From: Asticcacaulis biprosthecium C19 | GTDB taxonomy: Bacteria; Pseudomonadota; Alphaproteobacteria; Caulobacterales; Caulobacteraceae | NCBI RefSeq assembly: GCF_000204015.1 | Contig: NZ_GL883080.1 | Coordinates: forward strand, 686,464 to 749,194 | Reading direction: 5' to 3' | DNA length: 62,731 nucleotides | In this document: one piece after another, positions 16,840-28,588 of the stretch | How positions within the stretch are numbered: the stretch's first letter is position 1 | Layout of the letters: each line of letters opens with the position of its first letter | Made by a program: the position numbers and the translations under genes | The notes under the pieces: model-generated | What the model saw: only the letters and a program-made list of their open reading frames with translations | What the model was told of the DNA's origin: nothing | Database searches by the model: none

Positions 16840-19800
16840 ATGAAATCCAAAAGGGACGAATCCGTCCAAAATCAAGGCGTTGCCCGTCGTTCTCGTCTGA
16901 GCGTGGCGTTGCTCGGCTCGACGGCTCTGGCCGCCGCGCTTCTGTCGACAGCAGCTTTCGCCCAGGACGCAGCACCGGCCGCCGCCGAGGCCGCCCCGCC
17001 GGCCGATGACACCGTCGTCGTTGTTACCGGTATCCGTGGCGCGCTCCAATCCGCTTCGAGCATCAAGCGCAAGGCCTCGACCTTCGTTGACTCGATCACA
17101 GCTTCGGACGTTTCGGCTCTGCCGGACCTTTCGGTCGCTGAAGCCCTGCAGCGCGTTCCGGGCGTGACTGTCACGCGCTTCACGCTCGGCGGCAGCCCCG
17201 ACTTCCCGTCGCCCGAAGGTCGCGGTAACCTGATCCGCGGTCTGGGTTTTGTGCGTTCGGAATTCAACGGCCGTGACGCTTTCTCGGCCAATGCCGGTCG
17301 TGCACTTGAATGGTCCAGCATTCCGCCGCAGCTCGTCGGCGGCGTTGACGTTTATAAGAACTCGTCGGCCGACTTGATCGAAGGCGGCATCGGCGGCACG
17401 ATTAACCTGCGCACGCTGGAACCCTTTGATCGCAAGGGCTATTTTGCGTCCGTTTCGGCGGATTTCAACTATGGTGACCTGGCCAAGAAGTGGTCGCCAT
17501 CCTACAACGCCATGATCGGCAATCGCTGGCAGACGGATATCGGTGAATTCGGCCTGATGGGCTCCTATTCGACCTCGAAGCTGCTGTCGCGGATCGAAGG
17601 CTGGCAGCAGCCTGCGCCGATCCCGCGCGTTATTGGCGCCAATGGCAACAGCACGGGCGAGCGTCTCACCCACGAGCCGCGGACGACCACTGACCCGATT
17701 GCCGGCGCCATGCTGGGTTTCCAGATGCGTACCAACGATGTCGATCGTAATCGTGACAGCTTCTATATCGCCGGGCAATGGAAGAATGACAATTCCCGCC
17801 TGACCGCCAAGTACATCCGTGTTGACAACGAGACCCAGGGCGTCGAGCGTACGCTCGAATCCTTCCCGGGCGGCAACAATAACCAGCTCTACTCCTTCAG
17901 CAATGCTGTGTACGACACGAGCTGGTCCACCCCGGCTCTGAATCTCTGTAACGACCCGAACGCTGACGCTACGCGCGGTCAGGACTACTGCGAAAAGACT
18001 TTTGCGACTACGGGCGGCCTGATGCAGTCCGGCCTGATCACCAAGGACGAAGATTCGTGGTTTGGAGCCTATGGTCTCCATATCGACGTTCTGTCGATCG
18101 GCAAGACTGAGAAGTCGACGACCGAAGACCTGAGCCTGAACTATAAGTGGCGTCCGACAGACCGCCTGTATGTCGAGCTCGACGCGCAGCAGACCAAGGC
18201 CACGGCCTCGGTTGACGAGCTGTGGGGCGGTACCACGACTTTTGCTATGGCCCAAATTGCGGCTGACCTTGACAACCCGCGTGTTCGTTTGACGATTGAT
18301 CCGCGGACACGGTTCAGCGACGCCTTCAACGGCAACGGCGGTTATGTCTCTACGCCGATTACCGGCACGGACGATCCCAGCAATACGTTCTGGAAGTTCA
18401 ACTCGCAGGGCCATCAGCGCGGCACCGGTGAATTGACGGCCTTCCGCGCCGATGTGCAATACGACTTCGAGGACAATGCCTGGTTCAAGTCGGTGAAGTT
18501 TGGCGTCCGTACGTCCGAGCGTAGCCAGGTCAACAAGCAAGCAGACCTGAACTGGGGCGGCATCGGACCGCGTTGGGGCAATGTCGGTCTCGGCACACTG
18601 GCAGCGATGGATTCCTCGCTGTATGAGAAGATGGATTTCGCTGACTTCTACCGCGACTCCGGCGTGCTGCAGACGGATCAGGGCGGCCAGACCAAGTTCG
18701 CGGTCATCAGTTCCGAACTGCTGCTCAATCCCGAGAAAATGCTGCGCTTCATGCAGGCCGATAGCCGACTGTCGAACCCCGATGGTACGCTGAAGACCAA
18801 CTGGACAACGCAGCTGGATGAGAATTACCAGCCCATCTTTAATCCCGCGAACGTCTCAACCATTGTTGAAAAGACCGACAATGTCTATTTGATGGCCAAC
18901 TTCGGGCATGACTTCGATAATGGCATGTCGCTCGACGGTAACTTCGGCTTGCGCTACACCTCGACCAAGCTGAATTCGGAAGGATTCCTCAGCTATCGAT
19001 CGATCGACGCCGATCCGCAAACGGCCTCGACGACGGCCAATCCCCGGACACCGGATGCTGAAAGCCGTGACTCCGTGCAAGACTTCCTGCCGGAAACGAC
19101 GAGTTTCATGTGCCCGGGACTGTCCGCGGCATTGACGCCAACTGAACAGGCTGCGCCACCCAATGGTGGCGGCTGGACGCCCGCCACAGCACGTTTCCGT
19201 GGCTGCCCGGAAGGCCAGATCGGCAAGTCCGAAGCGCAATCCGTCAACATCGACGACGAACACTGGCTACCTTCGTTCAACGTTAAGTGGAATTTGAACG
19301 AAGACATGTTGATCCGTTTTGGGGCCAGCAAGAACATCAGCCGTCCGAACATCCAGGACATGCGTGCCGGCCAACAAATGCGTGCCGTTACTGCCCGTTT
19401 GGCTTTCCCGGTCATCCCGAGATGTGTGCCCCAAGCCCCCGCAACGACCTGTACCGAGGATCCATTGTTCGGTGTTGACCGCGGTGCGTCGTCCTTCCAG
19501 CTGGAGCAAATGCGTGTCACGGGTGGTAACCCCAGACTTAAGCCGACGACCTCGATCAACTATGATCTGTCATGGGAGTGGTACTTCCAGGGCGGGACGG
19601 TTTCGACGGCCTTCTTCAAGAAGGAACTGAAGAACATCATCCAAAGCGGCGACGAGACGTTGGGGTCCATGACCCTCGATGGCAAGACGGTCAGCGTGGT
19701 CTATGGTGGTCTGGTCAACCAGGAGACAGCCGATATTCAGGGTGTCGAACTGGCCTACCAGCAGTTCTATGACTTCCTGCCGGGTTGGATGTCGCACCTC

Positions 19801-20259
19801 GGTATGCAAGCCAACTTCACCTATATCGACGCAAGCGCTGCTCCCCCGCCGCCCTTCGTCGACGCAGATGGCGATGGCACGCCTGACTCCTACGCCACCA
19901 TCTATCGCTTTGGCGTCAACAACCTGCTGGGGCAATCCAAGTACATCCTCAACGTTGTCGGTATCTATCAGGACGACAAATGGGAAGGTCGCCTGGCTTA
20001 CAACTGGCGCGATGAGAACCTGACCACCTACCGTGACTACATCACCGGTGGTCCGATCTTTAACTCGGCGGTTGGTTTCCTGGACGGCTCGATCAAGTAC
20101 GACGTGAACCAAAAGCTTCAGGTGTCCTTGAACGCGTCGAACCTGCTCGACACCAAGAACAAGGCCGAAGCGCAAATCAGCGCAGATGGCCAACGCGTTG
20201 ATCGCTTCAGCTTCCTGAACGACCGTCGCTTTGTTTTGAGCGTTCGCTACCAGTACTAA
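16840..20259 (+). CDS. TonB-dependent receptor for oligosaccharides
   Basis: A 1139-residue outer-membrane receptor that imports a ligand using TonB energy. It has a long signal peptide (cleavage near residue 42, AFA|QD), a plug domain (about 65-230: VVVVTGIRGALQSA, LPDLSVAEALQRVPGVTV) and a 22-strand barrel ending in an aromatic C terminus (VRYQY). The length and plug features match the large receptor class common in Caulobacterales and xanthomonads. Its place after eight carbohydrate-active genes suggests xylo- or arabino-oligosaccharide uptake. A terminator hairpin follows the stop. Confidence 0.93.
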   Translation: MKSKRDESVQNQGVARRSRLSVALLGSTALAAALLSTAAFAQDAAPAAAEAAPPADDTVVVVTGIRGALQSASSIKRKASTFVDSITASDVSALPDLSVAEALQRVPGVTVTRFTLGGSPDFPSPEGRGNLIRGLGFVRSEFNGRDAFSANAGRALEWSSIPPQLVGGVDVYKNSSADLIEGGIGGTINLRTLEPFDRKGYFASVSADFNYGDLAKKWSPSYNAMIGNRWQTDIGEFGLMGSYSTSKLLSRIEGWQQPAPIPRVIGANGNSTGERLTHEPRTTTDPIAGAMLGFQMRTNDVDRNRDSFYIAGQWKNDNSRLTAKYIRVDNETQGVERTLESFPGGNNNQLYSFSNAVYDTSWSTPALNLCNDPNADATRGQDYCEKTFATTGGLMQSGLITKDEDSWFGAYGLHIDVLSIGKTEKSTTEDLSLNYKWRPTDRLYVELDAQQTKATASVDELWGGTTTFAMAQIAADLDNPRVRLTIDPRTRFSDAFNGNGGYVSTPITGTDDPSNTFWKFNSQGHQRGTGELTAFRADVQYDFEDNAWFKSVKFGVRTSERSQVNKQADLNWGGIGPRWGNVGLGTLAAMDSSLYEKMDFADFYRDSGVLQTDQGGQTKFAVISSELLLNPEKMLRFMQADSRLSNPDGTLKTNWTTQLDENYQPIFNPANVSTIVEKTDNVYLMANFGHDFDNGMSLDGNFGLRYTSTKLNSEGFLSYRSIDADPQTASTTANPRTPDAESRDSVQDFLPETTSFMCPGLSAALTPTEQAAPPNGGGWTPATARFRGCPEGQIGKSEAQSVNIDDEHWLPSFNVKWNLNEDMLIRFGASKNISRPNIQDMRAGQQMRAVTARLAFPVIPRCVPQAPATTCTEDPLFGVDRGASSFQLEQMRVTGGNPRLKPTTSINYDLSWEWYFQGGTVSTAFFKKELKNIIQSGDETLGSMTLDGKTVSVVYGGLVNQETADIQGVELAYQQFYDFLPGWMSHLGMQANFTYIDASAAPPPPFVDADGDGTPDSYATIYRFGVNNLLGQSKYILNVVGIYQDDKWEGRLAYNWRDENLTTYRDYITGGPIFNSAVGFLDGSIKYDVNQKLQVSLNASNLLDTKNKAEAQISADGQRVDRFSFLNDRRFVLSVRYQY

Positions 20260-20466: not shown

Positions 20467-21102
20467 ATGAACAAATTTCTGACCATCGTGGCTTCGGCCA
20501 TAGCCATAAGTGCAGTTGGCGGCCTGCCATCTGTCGCTATGGCGCAAGACTCTCTCTATCAGCCTGTCGCCTCAACGGGTGGTGCGGGTTACACGTCGGC
20601 CTCTATGGGCGATAATCGCTATGTTGTCGTCTTCACGGGCGAAGCGCGCACGAAGAAGGCCGTGGCGGCCAACTATGCCTTGCTGCGCGCCGCGGAATTG
20701 ACGGCAGAATCCGGCTTTGAGTGGTTCGCCGTTCTCAGTTCCACGGTCAAAAGCATCGAGCAGGGCGGCGAAGATGATATTGCGTCGCGCACGGGCTCTT
20801 TCATGGGTAACACCATGTCCGCGACGGGCAGCGCCGGTGGATCGGGCACAGGTCCGGCTGGTGGCAATAGTGCCGGGGGCGGTGACGGCAATGTTCAGAT
20901 GGGCCCTTCCACAGGCGGGTTCGGCGGCGGTGATGTTCCTCCGTCGGTTCTCGAACGTTGGAAGCCAAAGAAGGTCATTCAGGCGGCTCTGATTATCCAG
21001 ATGGGCAGTGGTGATGAAGCCAAGTTCGACGGCGTCAAAAAACAGCCGGAAATCTTCGAAGCCAAGTCGACAATCGAAGAACTCCGCGCGTCCATGCAAT
21101 AG
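20467..21102 (+). CDS. small secreted glycine-rich protein, resembles CC0125/CC1285-type
   Basis: A 211-residue exported protein (signal ending MA|QD near residue 27). The N-terminal domain (YVVVFTGEARTKKAV, YALLRAAELTAESGFEWF) looks like the CC0125/CC1285 lipoprotein-type domain of Caulobacter, but there is no lipobox cysteine. The middle (about 115-155) is a low-complexity Gly/Ser/Asn stretch. The C-terminal part includes WKPKKVIQAALIIQMG. Function is unknown. GAGAAGG ahead of the ATG supports the start. It is a separate unit between the receptor terminator and the hairpin at 21118. Confidence 0.7.
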   Translation: MNKFLTIVASAIAISAVGGLPSVAMAQDSLYQPVASTGGAGYTSASMGDNRYVVVFTGEARTKKAVAANYALLRAAELTAESGFEWFAVLSSTVKSIEQGGEDDIASRTGSFMGNTMSATGSAGGSGTGPAGGNSAGGGDGNVQMGPSTGGFGGGDVPPSVLERWKPKKVIQAALIIQMGSGDEAKFDGVKKQPEIFEAKSTIEELRASMQ

Positions 21103-21661: not shown

Positions 21662-23203
21662 ATGAGCGATAATCCCCAGGCAATTAAAAGCATATGCATT
21701 GTGGGCGGTGGTACGGCGGGCTGGATGGCGGCATCCGCCCTGGCGCACGAATTCAAGAGACTGCCGATCTCCATTACTCTGGTGGAATCCGACGAGATAG
21801 GCACGGTGGGTGTTGGTGAAGCCACCCTGCCTCACATCCGTAATTTCAATACAGCCCTCAACATAGACGAAGTCACCTTCATGAAGGCGACCGAAGCGAC
21901 ATTCAAACTCGGCATCGAGTTCTGCAACTGGGGCCGTATCGGCGACCGTTATATTCATCCGTTTGGCGACTACGGCGAAAAGATCGACGGCATTCCCTTC
22001 TATCAGCATTGGCTGCGCCTGCAGAAACTCGGCCTGGCCTCCCGTCTTGACGATTATGCCTTTCCGACCTCCATCGCCGAAGCCAACCGTTTTCGCCACC
22101 CCTCGACCGACCCGACCCGGATAGAATCGACCTACGGCTATGCCTATCAATTCGACGCGACACGCTACGCCGCCTTTCTGCGTCAGTTTGCCGAGGCGCG
22201 GGGCGTCGTCAGACGGCAGGGCAAGGTCGTTGATACGCGACTGGACGCCGAAACCGGGCATGTCGCAGCGCTGACGCTGGACAGTGGCGAGGTTGTAGCG
22301 GCCGATCTATACGTAGATTGTTCCGGTTTTCGCGGCCTTCTCATCGAGCAGGCGCTGAAAACGGGCTATGACGATTGGAGCCAGTGGCTGCCGTGCAATC
22401 GGGCCTTGGCTGTGCCGTGCGAATCGCGGGGCACTTTGACGCCGTTCACGCGCGCGACAGCCCTCGAAGCCGGCTGGCAGTGGAGGATACCATTGCAGCA
22501 TCGCACGGGCAATGGCTACGTCTATTGCAGCAGTTTCATCAGCGATGAGGACGCCAGTCGCCGCTTGCTTGGCAATCTGGATGCGCCGGCCCTGGCCGAC
22601 CCGCGTCAGCTCTATTTCACAACCGGCCGACGCAAGAAGTTATGGAATCGCAATGTTGTGGCCATCGGGCTTGCCGCAGGGTTCCTGGAGCCGCTCGAAT
22701 CGACCTCGATCCATCTGATTCAGGAAGGCATCAGTGAGTTGCTGCATATCTTCCCCGACAAGAGATTTCTCCAATCCGATATCGACGAATATAACCGGCG
22801 CATGGGGGTGAATTTTGAACGGGTGCGCGACTTCCTTTTATTGCACTATGCGGCGACCCAGCGTGACGATACCGAGATGTGGCGGCATTTCCGCAACTTG
22901 AAACTTCCCGACAGTCTGGAAGAAAAAATCCAGATATGGCTTACGCGCGGGCAACTCATCCGCTACGAGTTCGGCGTTTTCCTGCCACCAAGCTGGGTTG
23001 CCGTCATGTTGGGACAGAACCTGTTACCGCGTCATTATGATCCGCGTGTCGACCGGATGGCGCACGATACCTTGGTCCAGAACGCAGAGGGCTTGCGGCA
23101 GAGGGTGAACGCCGCGGTGTCGGCAACACCCGACCATAAGGACTATATCCGCCAAATGGGGGCGGCGTCCGACACTGGCCCCCTGATCGCGCAGGCCGTT
23201 TAA
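21662..23203 (+). CDS. flavin-dependent tryptophan-halogenase-family protein 1
   Basis: A 513-residue flavin-dependent halogenase-type enzyme: reduced FAD and O2 make hypohalous acid, which is passed to the substrate through a lysine. Visible are the dinucleotide motif VGGGTAGWMA (14-23), VGVGEATLP (49-57), Lys82 in ATFKLG (matching PrnA Lys79), the WxWxIP halogenase signature (GWQWRIP) and EPLEST carrying the second catalytic Glu. The family is often found near TonB receptors in carbohydrate loci, usually with unknown substrate. It heads a four-gene operon. A partner flavin reductase is not in the window. Confidence 0.9.
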   Translation: MSDNPQAIKSICIVGGGTAGWMAASALAHEFKRLPISITLVESDEIGTVGVGEATLPHIRNFNTALNIDEVTFMKATEATFKLGIEFCNWGRIGDRYIHPFGDYGEKIDGIPFYQHWLRLQKLGLASRLDDYAFPTSIAEANRFRHPSTDPTRIESTYGYAYQFDATRYAAFLRQFAEARGVVRRQGKVVDTRLDAETGHVAALTLDSGEVVAADLYVDCSGFRGLLIEQALKTGYDDWSQWLPCNRALAVPCESRGTLTPFTRATALEAGWQWRIPLQHRTGNGYVYCSSFISDEDASRRLLGNLDAPALADPRQLYFTTGRRKKLWNRNVVAIGLAAGFLEPLESTSIHLIQEGISELLHIFPDKRFLQSDIDEYNRRMGVNFERVRDFLLLHYAATQRDDTEMWRHFRNLKLPDSLEEKIQIWLTRGQLIRYEFGVFLPPSWVAVMLGQNLLPRHYDPRVDRMAHDTLVQNAEGLRQRVNAAVSATPDHKDYIRQMGAASDTGPLIAQAV

Positions 23204-23206
23204 CCC

Positions 23207-24691
23207 ATGGGAACATCTGATACATCGCCTGCGCAGACTGCGGGCCGTCACGTAGTGGTTTGCGGCAGTGGTTTGGCCGCTCAGCAGGTTTGCGCCGCCC
23301 TGGCGCCTTATCTTTGCGACGCGCTCAGCGTGACCTGGATTACGGGTATGTCGGGCGCGGATAGCGATATCGTTTATGGCAACCTCGCACCACCAACGGC
23401 CTACGATTTCAACCTGTCGCTGGGGGTCTCCGAACCGGACCTGATCCTGAACAGCGATACGACCTTCTCATACGGAACGCATGTCACGAACTGGGGCGCA
23501 CGCAGGCTGAACTGGGTGCAGGCTTTTCATCAGCCTCTTCCGGTCCTCGAAGGGGCGACGTTCCAACACTACCTGACGCAACAAGGTCAGTCGGCTCTGG
23601 AGCCGTTTCTGGTATCGGCCATGGCGGCACGGCGCGGCGTCTTTGCTCACCCGCCGGAAGACCTTGCCCACCCGTTGTCGCGGGCGGAATACGGCTATCA
23701 CTTTGACGCCGCGGCGTACGGCGCCCTGTTCGAGCTTGCCGCCGCTCGTGGCGGCGTGCGAAAGGTCGCGGCAGATATTTCCGCGATTGATGCCGTCGAT
23801 GGCGTCATTAACGCCGTTCATCTGAGCAATGGCCAGACCCTGACGGCCGGTTTGTGGATCGACGCCACGGGGCCGCAAGCTATGCTTCTGTCGCAGATCG
23901 CCGGGGTGCGTCAAGGCACCCGGCGTCTGTGCTTCCATCTGACGCGCATGGAAACGGAAACGCCTGGCCCGGCCGTTACCACTATCAACGGTACGCCTTA
24001 TGGCTGGCAGGCAAAGACGGCCTTGCGCACCTCAACGCTCATGCTGACGACCAGCGATCCAGACTCGGACCTGGAGGCCCAAGCCGCATTGGAGACGGCT
24101 CCGCTAAGGTCGGCGACCGTCGATATCTGCTGGCGCGACATGGCCTGGGTTGGCAACTGCGTTGGCATAGGTCACGCGGCCTGTGTGGCGGAACCCCTGA
24201 CCATCGCGCCCATGCGCCTGCTTCAGCGAGATATCGAACGCCTGCTGCCCCTGTTGCCGGTTTCTGACGACCTGTCGGTAGAGCGCCGCGAGTATAATCG
24301 CCAGGCCTTGGCGGACTATGTCCATGCCGACCTGTTCACGCGCGCCCTATTCGAGACGCAACCCATGGACGGGGCTCCGTACTGGCGTGCCGCCACCCGG
24401 ACACCTGCCGATGAACGCCTGGTACGCAAGATCGAACAGTTCGAAAGCCGCGGTCTGCATGTCGCTTTCGATCTCGAACCGTTCGGTCCGGAGGACTGGC
24501 TCACGCTTCACTACGGAATGGGGCGCAGTCCGTTGCGATATGATCGCACTGTTGATGGCGCGGACAGTGCCAGGATCAGGCAGTATCTCGAGACACTCCG
24601 CGGCAACATTGAGAATGCGGTCCGATCCATGCCACCTCACGCAAGCTATCTGAACGGTCTGACCAACTATCTTCGACAAACTAAAGGGTGA
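23207..24691 (+). CDS. degenerate tryptophan-halogenase-family protein 2, likely non-catalytic
   Basis: A 494-residue paralogue of its neighbours that keeps the fold pattern (GYHFDAAAYGALFE, IDATGPQAMLLSQ) but not the chemistry. The first glycine motif is CGSGLAAQQ (19-27) instead of GGGxAGWM. The VGVGEAT segment is replaced by VYGNLAPPT. The catalytic Lys is Ser88 (TTFSYG). WxWxIP is lost (YGWQAKT). EPLES has become EPLTI. The reading frame is intact and packed 3 bp from both neighbours, so it is expressed and kept. A structural or regulatory partner of the active halogenases is my inference. Confidence 0.75.
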   Translation: MGTSDTSPAQTAGRHVVVCGSGLAAQQVCAALAPYLCDALSVTWITGMSGADSDIVYGNLAPPTAYDFNLSLGVSEPDLILNSDTTFSYGTHVTNWGARRLNWVQAFHQPLPVLEGATFQHYLTQQGQSALEPFLVSAMAARRGVFAHPPEDLAHPLSRAEYGYHFDAAAYGALFELAAARGGVRKVAADISAIDAVDGVINAVHLSNGQTLTAGLWIDATGPQAMLLSQIAGVRQGTRRLCFHLTRMETETPGPAVTTINGTPYGWQAKTALRTSTLMLTTSDPDSDLEAQAALETAPLRSATVDICWRDMAWVGNCVGIGHAACVAEPLTIAPMRLLQRDIERLLPLLPVSDDLSVERREYNRQALADYVHADLFTRALFETQPMDGAPYWRAATRTPADERLVRKIEQFESRGLHVAFDLEPFGPEDWLTLHYGMGRSPLRYDRTVDGADSARIRQYLETLRGNIENAVRSMPPHASYLNGLTNYLRQTKG

Positions 24692-24694
24692 GGC

Positions 24695-26200
24695 ATGACC
24701 TCGTATATAAAGAAGATCGTCATTCTGGGCGGCGGATCCGCGGGCTGGATGACGGCGGCGGCACTATCCAGCCAACTCGATCCGAAATTCGTTTCGATCA
24801 CCCTGGTCGAGTCTGACCAGATCGGCACGATCGGTGTCGGCGAAGCGACCATCCCTGAGATCATCAATTTCAACCGTCACCTCGGCATTCGCGAAGACGA
24901 GTTCATGAAGGCGACCCACGCCACCTTCAAGCTGGGCATCGAGTTCGTCGACTGGGGGCGCAAGGGCGATGCCTATATACATCCGTTCGGCGGCCATGGC
25001 GTCGACATGAATGGTTACGAGTTCCATCAGTACTGGCTGCGCAGCCGTGCCGACGGCAATACGCATCCGATCGACGCCTACAGCATGTCCGCTGTTGCTT
25101 CCCGCCAAAACCGGTTTGACCTGCCGGGAACGACAAATTCTCCGCGCGGTCATATTCGCTATGCCTATCATTTCGATGCCACCCTGTATGCCCGTTTCCT
25201 GCGCACCTATGCGGAGGCGAGGGGCGTGCGCCGTGTCGAAGGCAAGGTCGAGGAGGTTCTGCAAGCGCCGGAATCGGGAGACATCACCGCGCTGAGGCTC
25301 GACACGGGCGAGACGATCAACGGGGAACTGTTCTTCGACTGCACGGGGTTCAGCGCGCTTCTGATCGGGAAGACCCTGGGTGTTGGGTATAATGACTGGA
25401 GTCACTGGCTGCCCTGCGACACGGCGCAGGCGGTGCCTTGCGCCCATGCCGGTCCGCTCTTGCCCTATACGCGCTCGACGGCCCGGACCGCGGGCTGGCA
25501 ATGGCGGATCCCGACCCAGACCCGTACCGGCAACGGTCATATCTACAGCAGCGCCTTCATGGAGGACGACGAAGCCACCGCGATCCTGCTCGCCAATCTT
25601 GACGGCGAGGCCATGGCATCACCTCGTCAAATTCGCTTCAAGGCCGGCCACCGCCACGCCTTCTGGAAGAAAAATTGCGTCGCCATCGGCCTGTCGGCCG
25701 GTTTTCTTGAGCCACTGGAATCGACCTCGATCTACCTGATTCAGGAAGGCATCAGCCGCTTTATCGCGCTGTTTCCCGACGCTTCGCTGCCCGAGGTGGT
25801 GCGCAAGGAATATAACCAGCACATGCAGACCGAATTCGAGCAGGTGCGCGACTTTATTATTCTGCATTACAGTGCGACCGAACGCGACGATACGCCGTTC
25901 TGGAACTACTGCCGCAACATGAGCATTCCCGATAGCCTCAATCACAAGATCGAATTGTTCCGGACGGCGGGTCGGACCTACGCCTACAGGGAGGAGCTGT
26001 TCGGACGCCCGAGCTGGATTGCCGTGTTCCTCGGCCAGGGCATCATGCCGCGAAGCTTCGACCCTGTGATCGCCATGCTGCCGTCTGATGCCGTGAGGGA
26101 CAGCCTTGACTCCATGCGTCAGGCCATGCACGCCGAAGCTGGCCGCATGCCCACCCACGCCGCCTTTCTGCAAAGCTACTGCCCCGCTGTAAGGGCCTAA
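24695..26200 (+). CDS. flavin-dependent tryptophan-halogenase-family protein 3
   Basis: A 501-residue halogenase-type enzyme with all key features: LGGGSAGWM (11-19), IGVGEATIP, Lys79 in ATFKLG (same number as PrnA Lys79), GWQWRIP and EPLESTSIYLIQ. It starts 3 bp after the preceding stop. It is close in sequence to proteins 1 and 4 and more distant from protein 2. The substrate is not known; Trp itself is not assured, because this environmental subgroup includes enzymes that prefer indole or unidentified substrates. Confidence 0.9.
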   Translation: MTSYIKKIVILGGGSAGWMTAAALSSQLDPKFVSITLVESDQIGTIGVGEATIPEIINFNRHLGIREDEFMKATHATFKLGIEFVDWGRKGDAYIHPFGGHGVDMNGYEFHQYWLRSRADGNTHPIDAYSMSAVASRQNRFDLPGTTNSPRGHIRYAYHFDATLYARFLRTYAEARGVRRVEGKVEEVLQAPESGDITALRLDTGETINGELFFDCTGFSALLIGKTLGVGYNDWSHWLPCDTAQAVPCAHAGPLLPYTRSTARTAGWQWRIPTQTRTGNGHIYSSAFMEDDEATAILLANLDGEAMASPRQIRFKAGHRHAFWKKNCVAIGLSAGFLEPLESTSIYLIQEGISRFIALFPDASLPEVVRKEYNQHMQTEFEQVRDFIILHYSATERDDTPFWNYCRNMSIPDSLNHKIELFRTAGRTYAYREELFGRPSWIAVFLGQGIMPRSFDPVIAMLPSDAVRDSLDSMRQAMHAEAGRMPTHAAFLQSYCPAVRA

Positions 26201-26229: not shown

Positions 26230-27771
26230 ATGCAAGATCTGAGAATTCGCAAAGTTGTTATTGTCGGCGGGGGAACCGCCGGATGGATGGCGGCCGCCGG
26301 TATGTCGAAACTGCTGCCGGCCAACCAGGTCGCCTTCCGGGTTGTCGAATCCGAAGCCATCGGCACGGTCGGTGTCGGCGAAGCGACCATCCCGCATATC
26401 CTCTACTTCAACCGACTTTTGGGAATCGACGAGAACGAGTTCGTCAGAAAAACCAATGCAACCTTCAAGACGGGGATCGAATTCGTCAACTGGGGACGGC
26501 TTGGGCAGAGCTATATCCACCCGTTTGGCCCTTACGGCGCCCCAATGGACGGCATCCACTTCCACCATTTCTGGCTGCGTTATGCGGCCATGGGCAAGGC
26601 GCCACCGCTGGAGCGGTACAGCCTGATGATACAGGCCGCACGGGCCGCCAAGTTTCAGCGCCCGGACCCGTCCAAGGTCAATACCGCGCTCAGCCTTATT
26701 GCCTATGCCTTCCATTTCGATGCCAGCCTTTACGCGCGTTTGATGCGCGAGCACGCTGAGGCCCGAGGCGTGACCCGGACAGAAGGCCGTATCACAAATG
26801 TGGTCCAGGATCCGCACTCCGGGCACGTCCAAAACGTCGTCCTGGAAACGGGCGAGGTCATCGAAGGTGACCTGTTCATCGATTGCTCCGGATTTCGCGG
26901 GCTGCTGATCGAGCAGACTCTCAAGGCAGGCTATGATGACTGGAGCCACTATCTGCCGTGTGACCGTGCCGTTGCACGGGCATGTGAGAAGGTCGCTGAT
27001 CCGATCCCCTATACGCGTGCCACGGCCAAGGCATCGGGCTGGCAATGGCGCATCCCGCTCCAGTCGCGAACGGGTAACGGCCATGTCTATTCCAGTGCCC
27101 ACATTTCCGACGATGCCGCGCTGGACAGCCTCAATGCGGATCTGGATGGCGCCCCCCTCACGGAGCCGAACTTTCTGAGGTTTACCGCCGGCATACGAAA
27201 GAGCCCCTGGACGAAAAATGTCGTATCCTTGGGGCTGGCGTCGGGTTTCCTGGAGCCGCTGGAATCGACGTCGATCCACCTGATCCAGACGGCCATCGCC
27301 CGCCTGATGACCAATTTTCCAGACAAGACCTTCAACCAGCCGGACATCGATTATTACAACCGTCGAACTCGGCTGGAATATGAACAGGTCCGCGACTTTA
27401 TCATTCTGCACTATAATGCGACTGCGCGCGACGATAGTCCGTTCTGGAACTATTGCCGGACGATGGAGATACCCCAGACGCTTGCAGACCGTTTGGCCAT
27501 ATACCGGGAGAATGCACGGCAATACCGACACGACAACGAACTGTTCAACGAGGTCAGTTGGCTGGCCGTCATGCAGGGTCAGAATATCGAGCCGAAGCGT
27601 TACCACCCGATCGCCGACATGATCTCGGAGGAGGAACTCGTGCGCCGCATGACTCATTTTGAGGACGACGTCACGCGGTCGCTTGCGACGATGCCCGGCC
27701 ATCAGGCCTTTATCGACCAGCATTGCCGCAGCGCCGGGGGCTGTATTAAAAGCGCATCCCAAAACGTGTGA
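26230..27771 (+). CDS. flavin-dependent tryptophan-halogenase-family protein 4
   Basis: A 513-residue halogenase-type enzyme and last gene of the cluster, 29 bp after protein 3. It has VGGGTAGWM (12-20), VGVGEATIP, catalytic Lys80 in ATFKTG, GWQWRIP and EPLESTSIHLIQ. All catalytic positions seen in PrnA-type enzymes are kept. It is convergent with the IclR gene after a gap of only 22 bp, with no clear terminator between them. Confidence 0.9.
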   Translation: MQDLRIRKVVIVGGGTAGWMAAAGMSKLLPANQVAFRVVESEAIGTVGVGEATIPHILYFNRLLGIDENEFVRKTNATFKTGIEFVNWGRLGQSYIHPFGPYGAPMDGIHFHHFWLRYAAMGKAPPLERYSLMIQAARAAKFQRPDPSKVNTALSLIAYAFHFDASLYARLMREHAEARGVTRTEGRITNVVQDPHSGHVQNVVLETGEVIEGDLFIDCSGFRGLLIEQTLKAGYDDWSHYLPCDRAVARACEKVADPIPYTRATAKASGWQWRIPLQSRTGNGHVYSSAHISDDAALDSLNADLDGAPLTEPNFLRFTAGIRKSPWTKNVVSLGLASGFLEPLESTSIHLIQTAIARLMTNFPDKTFNQPDIDYYNRRTRLEYEQVRDFIILHYNATARDDSPFWNYCRTMEIPQTLADRLAIYRENARQYRHDNELFNEVSWLAVMQGQNIEPKRYHPIADMISEEELVRRMTHFEDDVTRSLATMPGHQAFIDQHCRSAGGCIKSASQNV

Positions 27772-27793: not shown

Positions 27794-28588
27794 TTACGAG
27801 CGGATCGCGCCCAGTTCTTCCGAGATCTGGCGGCAGGTTTCCTGCAGCACGACGCGGGCATCATCGCGCTCCACTTTTTGTGTACCGTCGATCAACTGGA
27901 GAAACGGCACCGTCAAGGCCGCCACGGCGACACCGTTGCCACCGAAGATCGGATAGCTGATGTCGGTCACGCCCACTGTGCGCGCACTTTTCATCATCTC
28001 GTAGCCTCGCGCCCTGACTTTGCGCAACGTCGTCTCGAGCGCGGAATCCAGGCTGAGCGGGGGCACGGCACGGCCGTCGTTCACGGCGTCGAACGCCAGC
28101 AAGACATGGCCGGAACAGCTTGTCTCAAGGACAATCTCGGCACCGACGCGGACGGCGAAAACGGTGGGGCCCGGAGTCTGTTGCCTATGGACGATCATGC
28201 CACGTTCTGCGTTTCGGACAACCAGGTGACACGACTGTTCGATACGGTTGGCGAGGTCGCGCATGAAGGGGGCCGCAGTTTCGACCAGATCGTCGACCGG
28301 TGTCGCCTTAAAACCCATCTCCAGCAGACGGAGCGTCACGCGAAAACGGTCTCCCGGATGGCGCCGCAACCAGGCTAGTCGCTCCATCACCATGATCACG
28401 CGAAAAATCTCGCTGACCGAAAAGCCAAGTTTTCCGGCCATCTCCGTAATCGTCAGGCCGCGCGGAAACTCGGAAAGTAGTTCCAGGATTGTGAAGCCTT
28501 TTTCAAGCGCCGGCGCGCTGTAGACGGGCGCCTTTGTTGCGGTATCGTCAGGGATCTGGGACGAACTGGCCATGGGTGTGGAACTCAT
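27794..28588 (-). CDS. IclR-family transcriptional regulator
   Basis: A 264-residue regulator. An N-terminal winged helix-turn-helix (about 30-90: GFTILELLSEFPRGLTITEMAGKLG) is followed by the IclR effector domain (about 105-260, with GHVLLAF and the conserved GVAALTVP segment). IclR proteins usually control catabolic operons and bind small organic acids or aromatic compounds. It is convergent with the halogenase operon and divergent from the DUF4010 gene, so its targets cannot be read from position alone. Confidence 0.9.
   Translation of the reverse strand: MSSTPMASSSQIPDDTATKAPVYSAPALEKGFTILELLSEFPRGLTITEMAGKLGFSVSEIFRVIMVMERLAWLRRHPGDRFRVTLRLLEMGFKATPVDDLVETAAPFMRDLANRIEQSCHLVVRNAERGMIVHRQQTPGPTVFAVRVGAEIVLETSCSGHVLLAFDAVNDGRAVPPLSLDSALETTLRKVRARGYEMMKSARTVGVTDISYPIFGGNGVAVAALTVPFLQLIDGTQKVERDDARVVLQETCRQISEELGAIRS

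Follow-up and report, generated by a model that had tools for sequence, protein, structure and literature searches.

A degenerate halogenase homologue in Asticcacaulis biprosthecium C19, probably retained as the obligate partner of its catalytic neighbor

Organization of the locus

The window, i.e., the whole stretch of 62,731 nucleotides from A. biprosthecium C19 that was analyzed, contains four FDH-like halogenase genes in tandem (H1, X2, H3, and H4), located behind a receptor and a lipoprotein gene; these genes and the residues given below lie on the + strand. The cluster is headed by a TonB-dependent receptor of the TonB-Xanth-Caul type (16840..20259; TIGR01782, 574 bits), followed by a CC0125-family lipoprotein (20467..21102; NF047637, 78 bits against a cut-off of 40). 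H1 (21662..23203; PF04820, 638 bits) carries the catalytic motifs, including Lys82 (21905..21907), the equivalent of PrnA Lys79, and is placed in the FDH clade associated with X2; its Gly438 (22973..22975) occupies a lid position that is non-acidic in all 56 H1 proteins. X2 (23207..24691), a degenerate FDH and the proposed obligate partner of H1, is recognized from its PF04820 score, its orthologues, and its omega values. Two ordinary FDHs complete the series, namely H3 (24695..26200; PF04820, 626 bits), in which Lys and Glu are kept together with the lid acid Glu434, and H4 (26230..27771; PF04820, 640 bits). An IclR-type regulator on the - strand (27794..28588; PF01614 and PF09339) faces the cluster.

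The surroundings of X2 form a glycan-use locus with two arabinofuranosidase-domain proteins, GH3, GH31, and GH97, and a GH43 at its far end. In Asticcacaulis sp. AC460 (L054), the IclR, GntR, MFS, and GH43 genes stand directly behind the FDH cluster, whereas in the window some 30 kb (28.6-58.3 kb) lie between IclR and GntR; this stretch holds what we take to be efflux, cytochrome oxidase, and P-type ATPase-like genes.

A Pfam profile search of the 5.4-Mb genome (G000) found 25 PF04820 proteins, among which X2 is the weakest match. Second from the bottom, at 328 bits, stands a further degenerate copy, which is again gene two of a trio linked to a receptor, and the catalytic Lys and Glu are present in 23 of the 25 proteins, i.e., in all but these two X2. 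A Cupin_8 (JmjC-like) protein (L009:17645-18664) is divergent from the receptor of this second H1-X2 cluster. A separate group of FDHs (L010:8780-10354, L011:8301-9908, and L009:6996-8588), with 419-434 Pfam bits, reads GVGEG(T/S) for GVGEAT and keeps Lys and Glu.

Sequence features of X2

The preliminary description of this DNA had depicted the second halogenase gene as a degenerate copy with an open frame, packed between active paralogues. Both observations hold, as 23207-24691 is an uninterrupted ORF of 494 amino acids with a 3-bp gap to the stop of H1 on one side and a 3-bp gap to H3 on the other, and both of these FDHs keep their catalytic residues. The sole Pfam match of X2 at E <= 0.001 is PF04820, with 175 bits vs. 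626-640 bits for the neighbors; since this lies above the curated cut-off of 21 and spans profile positions 2-456 of 458, X2 is a member of the family by descent.

Three of the four motif losses that had been claimed were also found. The equivalent of PrnA Lys79 is Ser88 (23468..23470) and the catalytic second Glu of EPLES (PrnA E346) is Thr332, each being the same in all 10 full-length orthologues, window included; residues 329-335 read EPLTIAP in place of EPLESTS (24191..24211), and WxWxIP has become WQAKTA (residues 267-272; 24005..24022). In addition, GVGEATLP, which is kept in the neighboring FDHs, is replaced by VYGNLAPP (residues 56-63; 23372..23395). The claimed loss of the FAD glycine motif, on the other hand, was not confirmed: residues 20-25 read GSGLAA (23264..23281), an altered yet recognizable dinucleotide motif, with Gly20 and Gly22 invariant in the 10 full-length orthologues and the third glycine being Gly in five and Ala in five. 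The second flavin signature, DATG (residues 219-222; 23861..23872), is present as well, with D219 and G222 invariant in the same 10 proteins. FAD binding may therefore be retained in the window branch of X2, because the glycines of GxGxx(G/A) and DATG are conserved.

Over the 10 full-length orthologues, down to 39% identity, 106 positions are invariant, and 19 of these (including Ser88 and Thr332) differ from the residue conserved in at least 90% of 29 neighboring FDHs. Judged from this conservation, the residue replacements in X2 are constrained rather than random. When X2 of all types are considered, the K79 column holds Lys in 6/56 and the E346 column Glu in 4/56, a few of these rows being short and possibly misaligned there, and no X2 has both together. 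The second Trp of WxWxIP is found in 2/56 X2 vs. 161/161 FDHs, the Glu of GVGEAT in 3/56 X2, and the Thr after EPLES in 1/56.

Distribution and synteny

The preliminary description had proposed searching for the same degenerate paralogue beside halogenases in relatives, and it was found there. With X2 as the query, orthologues were detected in 10 of 60 relatives (own genome excluded) at 39-87% identity, while the next-best matches in these 60 genomes were ordinary FDHs and other X2 types at no more than 32% identity. A profile search recovered X2 orthologues in 29 of 398 genomes of the order (own included), the lowest at 469 bits. Outside the order, G436 was the only carrier (642 bits) in a class sample of 337 and a phylum sample of 349 genomes, with the next matches at no more than 257 bits. 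Among named relatives, Asticcacaulis sp. AC402 and AC460 are the nearest to have the window cluster, and X2 is carried, among other named genomes, by Asticcacaulis, Litorimonas, Parvularcula, and Hyphomonas or Hellea MAGs. Open X2 frames thus occur across several families of the order, and beyond.

The gene order H1-X2-H3 is seen in the fetched window-type loci wherever the contig permits. Orthologues of H1, defined by at least 61% identity, a cut chosen after a gap between 61% and 59% was seen, are also present in 29/398 order genomes; those matches at 59% that were fetched are H1 of other subtypes, each with its own X2. Among the 30 genomes with either window-type H1 or X2, 28 hold both, and the two mismatches are contig ends carrying a fragment of the partner. 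In G018 (L052:3749-10555), H3 is intact and the receptor, H1, and X2 are all broken; either the cluster seems to be decaying as a unit or this part of the assembly contains errors.

The receptor stands beside H1-X2 in 10/10 loci of relatives in the first fetch and in most loci of the later fetches; the stretches fetched for two pairs of another X2 type (L167 and L169) gave no receptor match. Receptor linkage of H1-X2 is hence usual, not universal. The CC0125-family lipoprotein is at the same place in 9/10 fetched loci of relatives and was not found in G059.

Pairing of H1-type FDHs with X2

Other receptor-linked FDH clusters contain further degenerate second genes of very different sequence. 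In a phylogenetic tree with 104 rows, the 25 first genes (H1) all fall into one group (SH-aLRT 94), which excludes all 20 other rows, namely 18 further FDHs of the own genome and the two halves of a fusion protein. This fusion (L141:5896-9006, G012) is a protein of 1036 amino acids with two complete FDH domains joined head to tail, each carrying the catalytic Lys and EPLES, and a TonB-receptor match adjoins it. All 23 X2 included in the same tree form one group as well (SH-aLRT 99), the two most reduced X2 being omitted; the program warns of long branches, and the status of X2 as a single group is less sure because it rests on them.

Profiles of H1, X2, and other FDHs were built from 25 clusters and the FDHs of the own genome and then applied to 40 further loci (20 from the order and 20 from the phylum), chosen mostly by score rank and never by the next gene. 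The order sample comprised 20 matches below 61% identity. As far as G118 these were taken by rank with three exceptions, namely G398 and G316 (omitted as presumed near-duplicates of G326) and G247:C139:903-2375, the H3 gene of the window-type cluster L099, which is an ordinary FDH and is not followed by X2. The 20 were completed with G147 and with G206 and G116, chosen because their open frames were long, and G169, G213, G209, and others between them were passed over; farther down, the order list also contains H4-type genes from clusters that had been counted before. The phylum sample consisted of 20 stretches taken mostly by rank, leaving out loci already in the set and several lower ones (e.g., G920:C1:3554403, G955:C6, G1104, G1028, G1012:C7, and G062).

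In the order test, all 20 H1-like FDHs have X2 directly downstream, and the X2 profile beats the H1 and other-FDH profiles each time. In the phylum test, X2 is next in 11/11 loci with an H1-type FDH and in 0/9 loci without one. Pooled over 82 near-complete FDHs (more than 440 amino acids and more than 600 bits), X2 is next to 31/31 H1-type vs. 0/51 other FDHs, where next means within 400 bp on the same strand and ORFs shorter than 130 amino acids are unlisted, so that a very reduced X2 behind an ordinary FDH could be missed. An earlier tally of 12/13 among clusters of at least three genes came from nine genomes picked for tandem matches; it is biased and was not used as a test. At L175 (9943-11526), an ordinary FDH that falls 6 bits short of the H1 type has no X2. 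The three FDHs of G014 C38, considered as a counter-example in view of their lack of X2, were ruled out, none being H1-type by profile.

Across 161 FDHs, only members of the H1 clade have X2 as their immediate downstream neighbor, and in the tree of these FDHs the trait of being followed by X2 changes once (SH-aLRT 92). Repeated, independent degeneration of neighboring genes is disfavored, because a single branch separates the X2-followed FDHs from all others in a tree built without X2 rows. At four loci (L164, L167, L169, and L177), H1-X2 stands with no further FDH in the approximately 4 kb fetched behind X2, and the unit is therefore the H1-X2 pair. The two genes form an obligate pair in the sense that no partner-type FDH lacked X2 wherever enough sequence was available to tell.

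Selection, co-divergence, and origin

An analysis of dN/dS had been proposed as a further check, and it showed X2 to be non-neutral. In a codon model with eight informative pairs, omega is 0.08-0.28 for X2 vs. 0.03-0.12 for H1, H3, and H4; a ninth pair (window vs. L046), saturated at synonymous sites, was left out of this range. The comparison further set aside L132 and L136 at the third gene, where they are not orthologous. Neutrality (omega 1) is rejected for X2 in all eight informative pairs, with 2dlnL of 58-207. By this codon model, X2 is under purifying selection and neutral drift is excluded. With a fold predicted by homology to be kept, catalytic residues lost, and selection maintained, X2 reads as a probable pseudoenzyme.

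The identity matrices of H1 and X2 over 56 pairs correlate with r 0.81, a value that none of 2000 permutations reached. For the 25 loci, the correlation of distances is 0.93 between X2 and H1, 0.86 between X2 and H3, and 0.83 between H1 and H3. A topology in which X2 and H1 form one clade is not rejected (p-AU 0.683) and has a likelihood 11.8 above that of the free search, in a tree from which near-duplicates, X2s on long branches, and some divergent FDHs had been removed. This is in line with, not proof of, an origin of X2 as a tandem duplicate of H1.

Lid residue and reduction of X2

The two genes complement each other in the lid beside the substrate site. The column of the lid acid, represented by Glu434 in H3, Glu424 in X2 (24476..24478), and Gly438 in H1, is E or D in 105/105 FDHs not followed by X2 and in 0/56 of those that are (55 Gly and 1 Ser), whereas it is E or D in 48/56 X2, the other 8/56 being without the lid acid. 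Among 172 columns conserved to at least 80% in other FDHs, two are lost in H1: the lid acid and an Ile in the GEAT loop. Loss of the lid acid in H1 and presence of X2 fall on one branch and therefore represent one evolutionary event, not a replicated correlation.

The H1 clade can also be told apart at the columns of residues 56 and 58 of the window H1, the former being Ile in 4% of H1 vs. 90% of other FDHs and the latter His in 88% of H1 vs. 8% of other FDHs. One H1 of the 56 (L132:9839-11386) reads EPLKS, the catalytic Glu being replaced by Lys, while the H1 of L134 and L136 read EPLES.

X2 proteins range in length from about 500 down to 266 amino acids. Those of 266, 329, 330, 369, and 433 amino acids lack the bulk of profile positions 222-310, where WxWxIP is located. 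The smallest (G048) retains a single Pfam trace, PF04820 positions 405-450 (14.3 bits, below the cut-off of 21), which is the lid segment; the matching segment in the window X2 is R415-W431 (24449..24499).

Proposed role of X2 and alternative explanations

The preliminary description had suggested that the second gene encodes a pseudoenzyme partner, which might serve in forming a complex or delivering substrate, and had named proteins 1, 3, and 4 alike for co-purification. Its partner role is supported by the X2 orthologues, by selection, and by the 31/31 vs. 0/51 pairing. The likely partner can be narrowed to H1 (protein 1), because, among the FDHs sampled, X2 follows every H1-type FDH and no other, and some pairs stand without H3 or H4. 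We contend that X2 is probably a pseudo-halogenase retained as an obligate, non-halogenating partner of H1. An ancestral FDH would have duplicated in tandem, after which the H1 copy retained catalysis and gave up the acidic lid residue next to the substrate, and the X2 copy lost catalysis and kept the lid segment and its acid. H1, which carries Lys and Glu, would make the hypohalite, and X2 would most likely bind H1 as a heteromer, possibly in place of one subunit of an FDH homodimer. X2 could then position a large substrate at the solvent-exposed site of H1, or close this site, with its conserved lid segment giving it shape. The linkage to TonB receptors suggests that the substrate of H1-X2 is connected with uptake.

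A more specific version can be speculated upon, and we hold it only tentatively: the two products may share one active site, in which H1 supplies the flavin chemistry, Lys, and Glu, X2 provides the acidic lid in trans, and the halves jointly hold a large substrate. If so, FDHs with Gly in the lid would be functional only with their X2.

That X2 is a flavoenzyme with a new reaction in a rebuilt active site, such as hydroxylation or the supply of reduced flavin to H1, appears unlikely. The GxGxx(G/A), D219, and G222 kept by window-type X2, the 19 invariant positions with a residue unlike that conserved in FDHs, and a weak match to GoxB would all fit such an enzyme, but in other X2 lineages (266-433 amino acids) much of the flavin and substrate domains is gone, and the near-complete absence of the GVGEAT Glu and of the Thr after EPLES speaks against it as well.

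We consider it quite improbable that X2 regulates H1 as an inhibitor, dominant-negative subunit, or stability factor while taking no part in substrate binding or catalysis. Regulation would be compatible with the obligate pairing, with the rapid change seen in X2, and with the catalytic Lys-Glu pair being kept in 0/56 X2; even in the smallest X2, however, the Pfam match still touches the lid segment beside the substrate site, and the lid acid of X2 is complementary to its loss in H1.

A role of X2 as a shared scaffold or substrate carrier for the cluster as a whole, or for H3/H4 in place of H1, is highly improbable. Although X2 is flanked by H1 and H3 in the window and in most clusters, and its distances also track those of H3, they fit H1 better (0.93 vs. 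0.86); X2 is directly behind an ordinary FDH in none of 51 cases, and L164, L167, L169, and L177 have H1-X2 and no FDH in the stretch fetched after X2. Lastly, a decaying pseudogene or a hitchhiker in a mobile operon, to which the faster evolution of X2 than of its neighbors and the broken G018 cluster might point, is rejected with near certainty by the selection test (2dlnL of at least 58 in each pair tested), by the occurrence of open frames in several families of the order as well as outside it, and by the 106 invariant residues.

Relationship to known systems

Enzyme/pseudoenzyme pairs that arise from gene duplication are a known general class. H1-X2 resembles them in combining a catalytic member and a faster-evolving non-catalytic paralogue in one operon. 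The flavoprotein maturases GoxB/LodB/QhpG (NCBIfam) give weak profile matches with X2 (GoxB) and with its neighbors; membership of X2 in the GoxB family was rejected at 28.5 bits against a cut-off of 400.

By sequence, H1, H3, and X2 have their closest solved relatives among FDHs of the BrvH/Xcc4156 type (PDB 6frl and 6y1w; also 9luq). These three score 677, 702, and 726 bits with the ordinary-FDH profile vs. 652, 637, and 671 bits with the H1 profile, respectively, and are therefore not H1-type. BrvH has the Lys, Glu, and WxWxIP, unlike X2, which is without all three. In published accounts, BrvH and Xcc4156 are described as having an open substrate site with a short lid loop (PMC5945002; PMC7336383), the BrvH exchange K83A as abolishing activity, and BrvH as a dimer by gel filtration and in the crystal (PMC5945002). 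For BrvH, S447, M442, and F443 are placed at the indole, and a short loop 432-444 is described as leaving the site open (PMC5945002). Counting ungapped from a shared Ser-Trp would place the lid acid at BrvH residue 441. The native substrates of BrvH and of three Xanthomonas enzymes are reported as unknown (PMC7336383). BrvH has been compared with MibH, one of the peptide-acting FDHs, which combine an open site with a large substrate, and the structure section of the paper making this comparison does not mention a degenerate partner (PMC5945002).

Structure prediction with AlphaFold, in which two genes were modeled as one chain, gave a pTM of 0.66 for H1-X2 and 0.54 for X2-H3, based on unequal alignments of 9 and 4 paired rows, respectively, as only in-frame neighbors could be read through. 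The X2 half is well predicted in both models (blocks mostly 80-95), and the partner halves are shallow. A Foldseek search with the X2-H3 model returned FDHs first, the top 7 of the 50 shown having 44-49% identity; this result is uninformative on X2 because such identity fits the H3 half.

A pair of a halogenase and a pseudoenzyme was not found in the open-access papers searched, and among the matches listed there no title or abstract start described an FDH with a degenerate partner. For FDHs, an obligate enzyme/pseudoenzyme pair that is marked by a diagnostic residue appears to be new.

Implications

TonB-linked FDHs are numerous, as illustrated by the 25 PF04820 proteins in this genome alone. 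If one clade of them depends on a dead twin for its function, testing H1-type enzymes on their own would give failed or misleading assays, and, should the obligate pairing be true, X2 would be the missing subunit of H1-type enzymes, which can now be named. A single lid position (Gly, once Ser, for Glu/Asp) marks 56/56 partner-followed FDHs and 0/105 others and is thereby usable for mining. Moreover, the X2 family offers a natural series of pseudoenzyme shrinking, from about 500 to 266 residues, in which the partner H1 stays intact.
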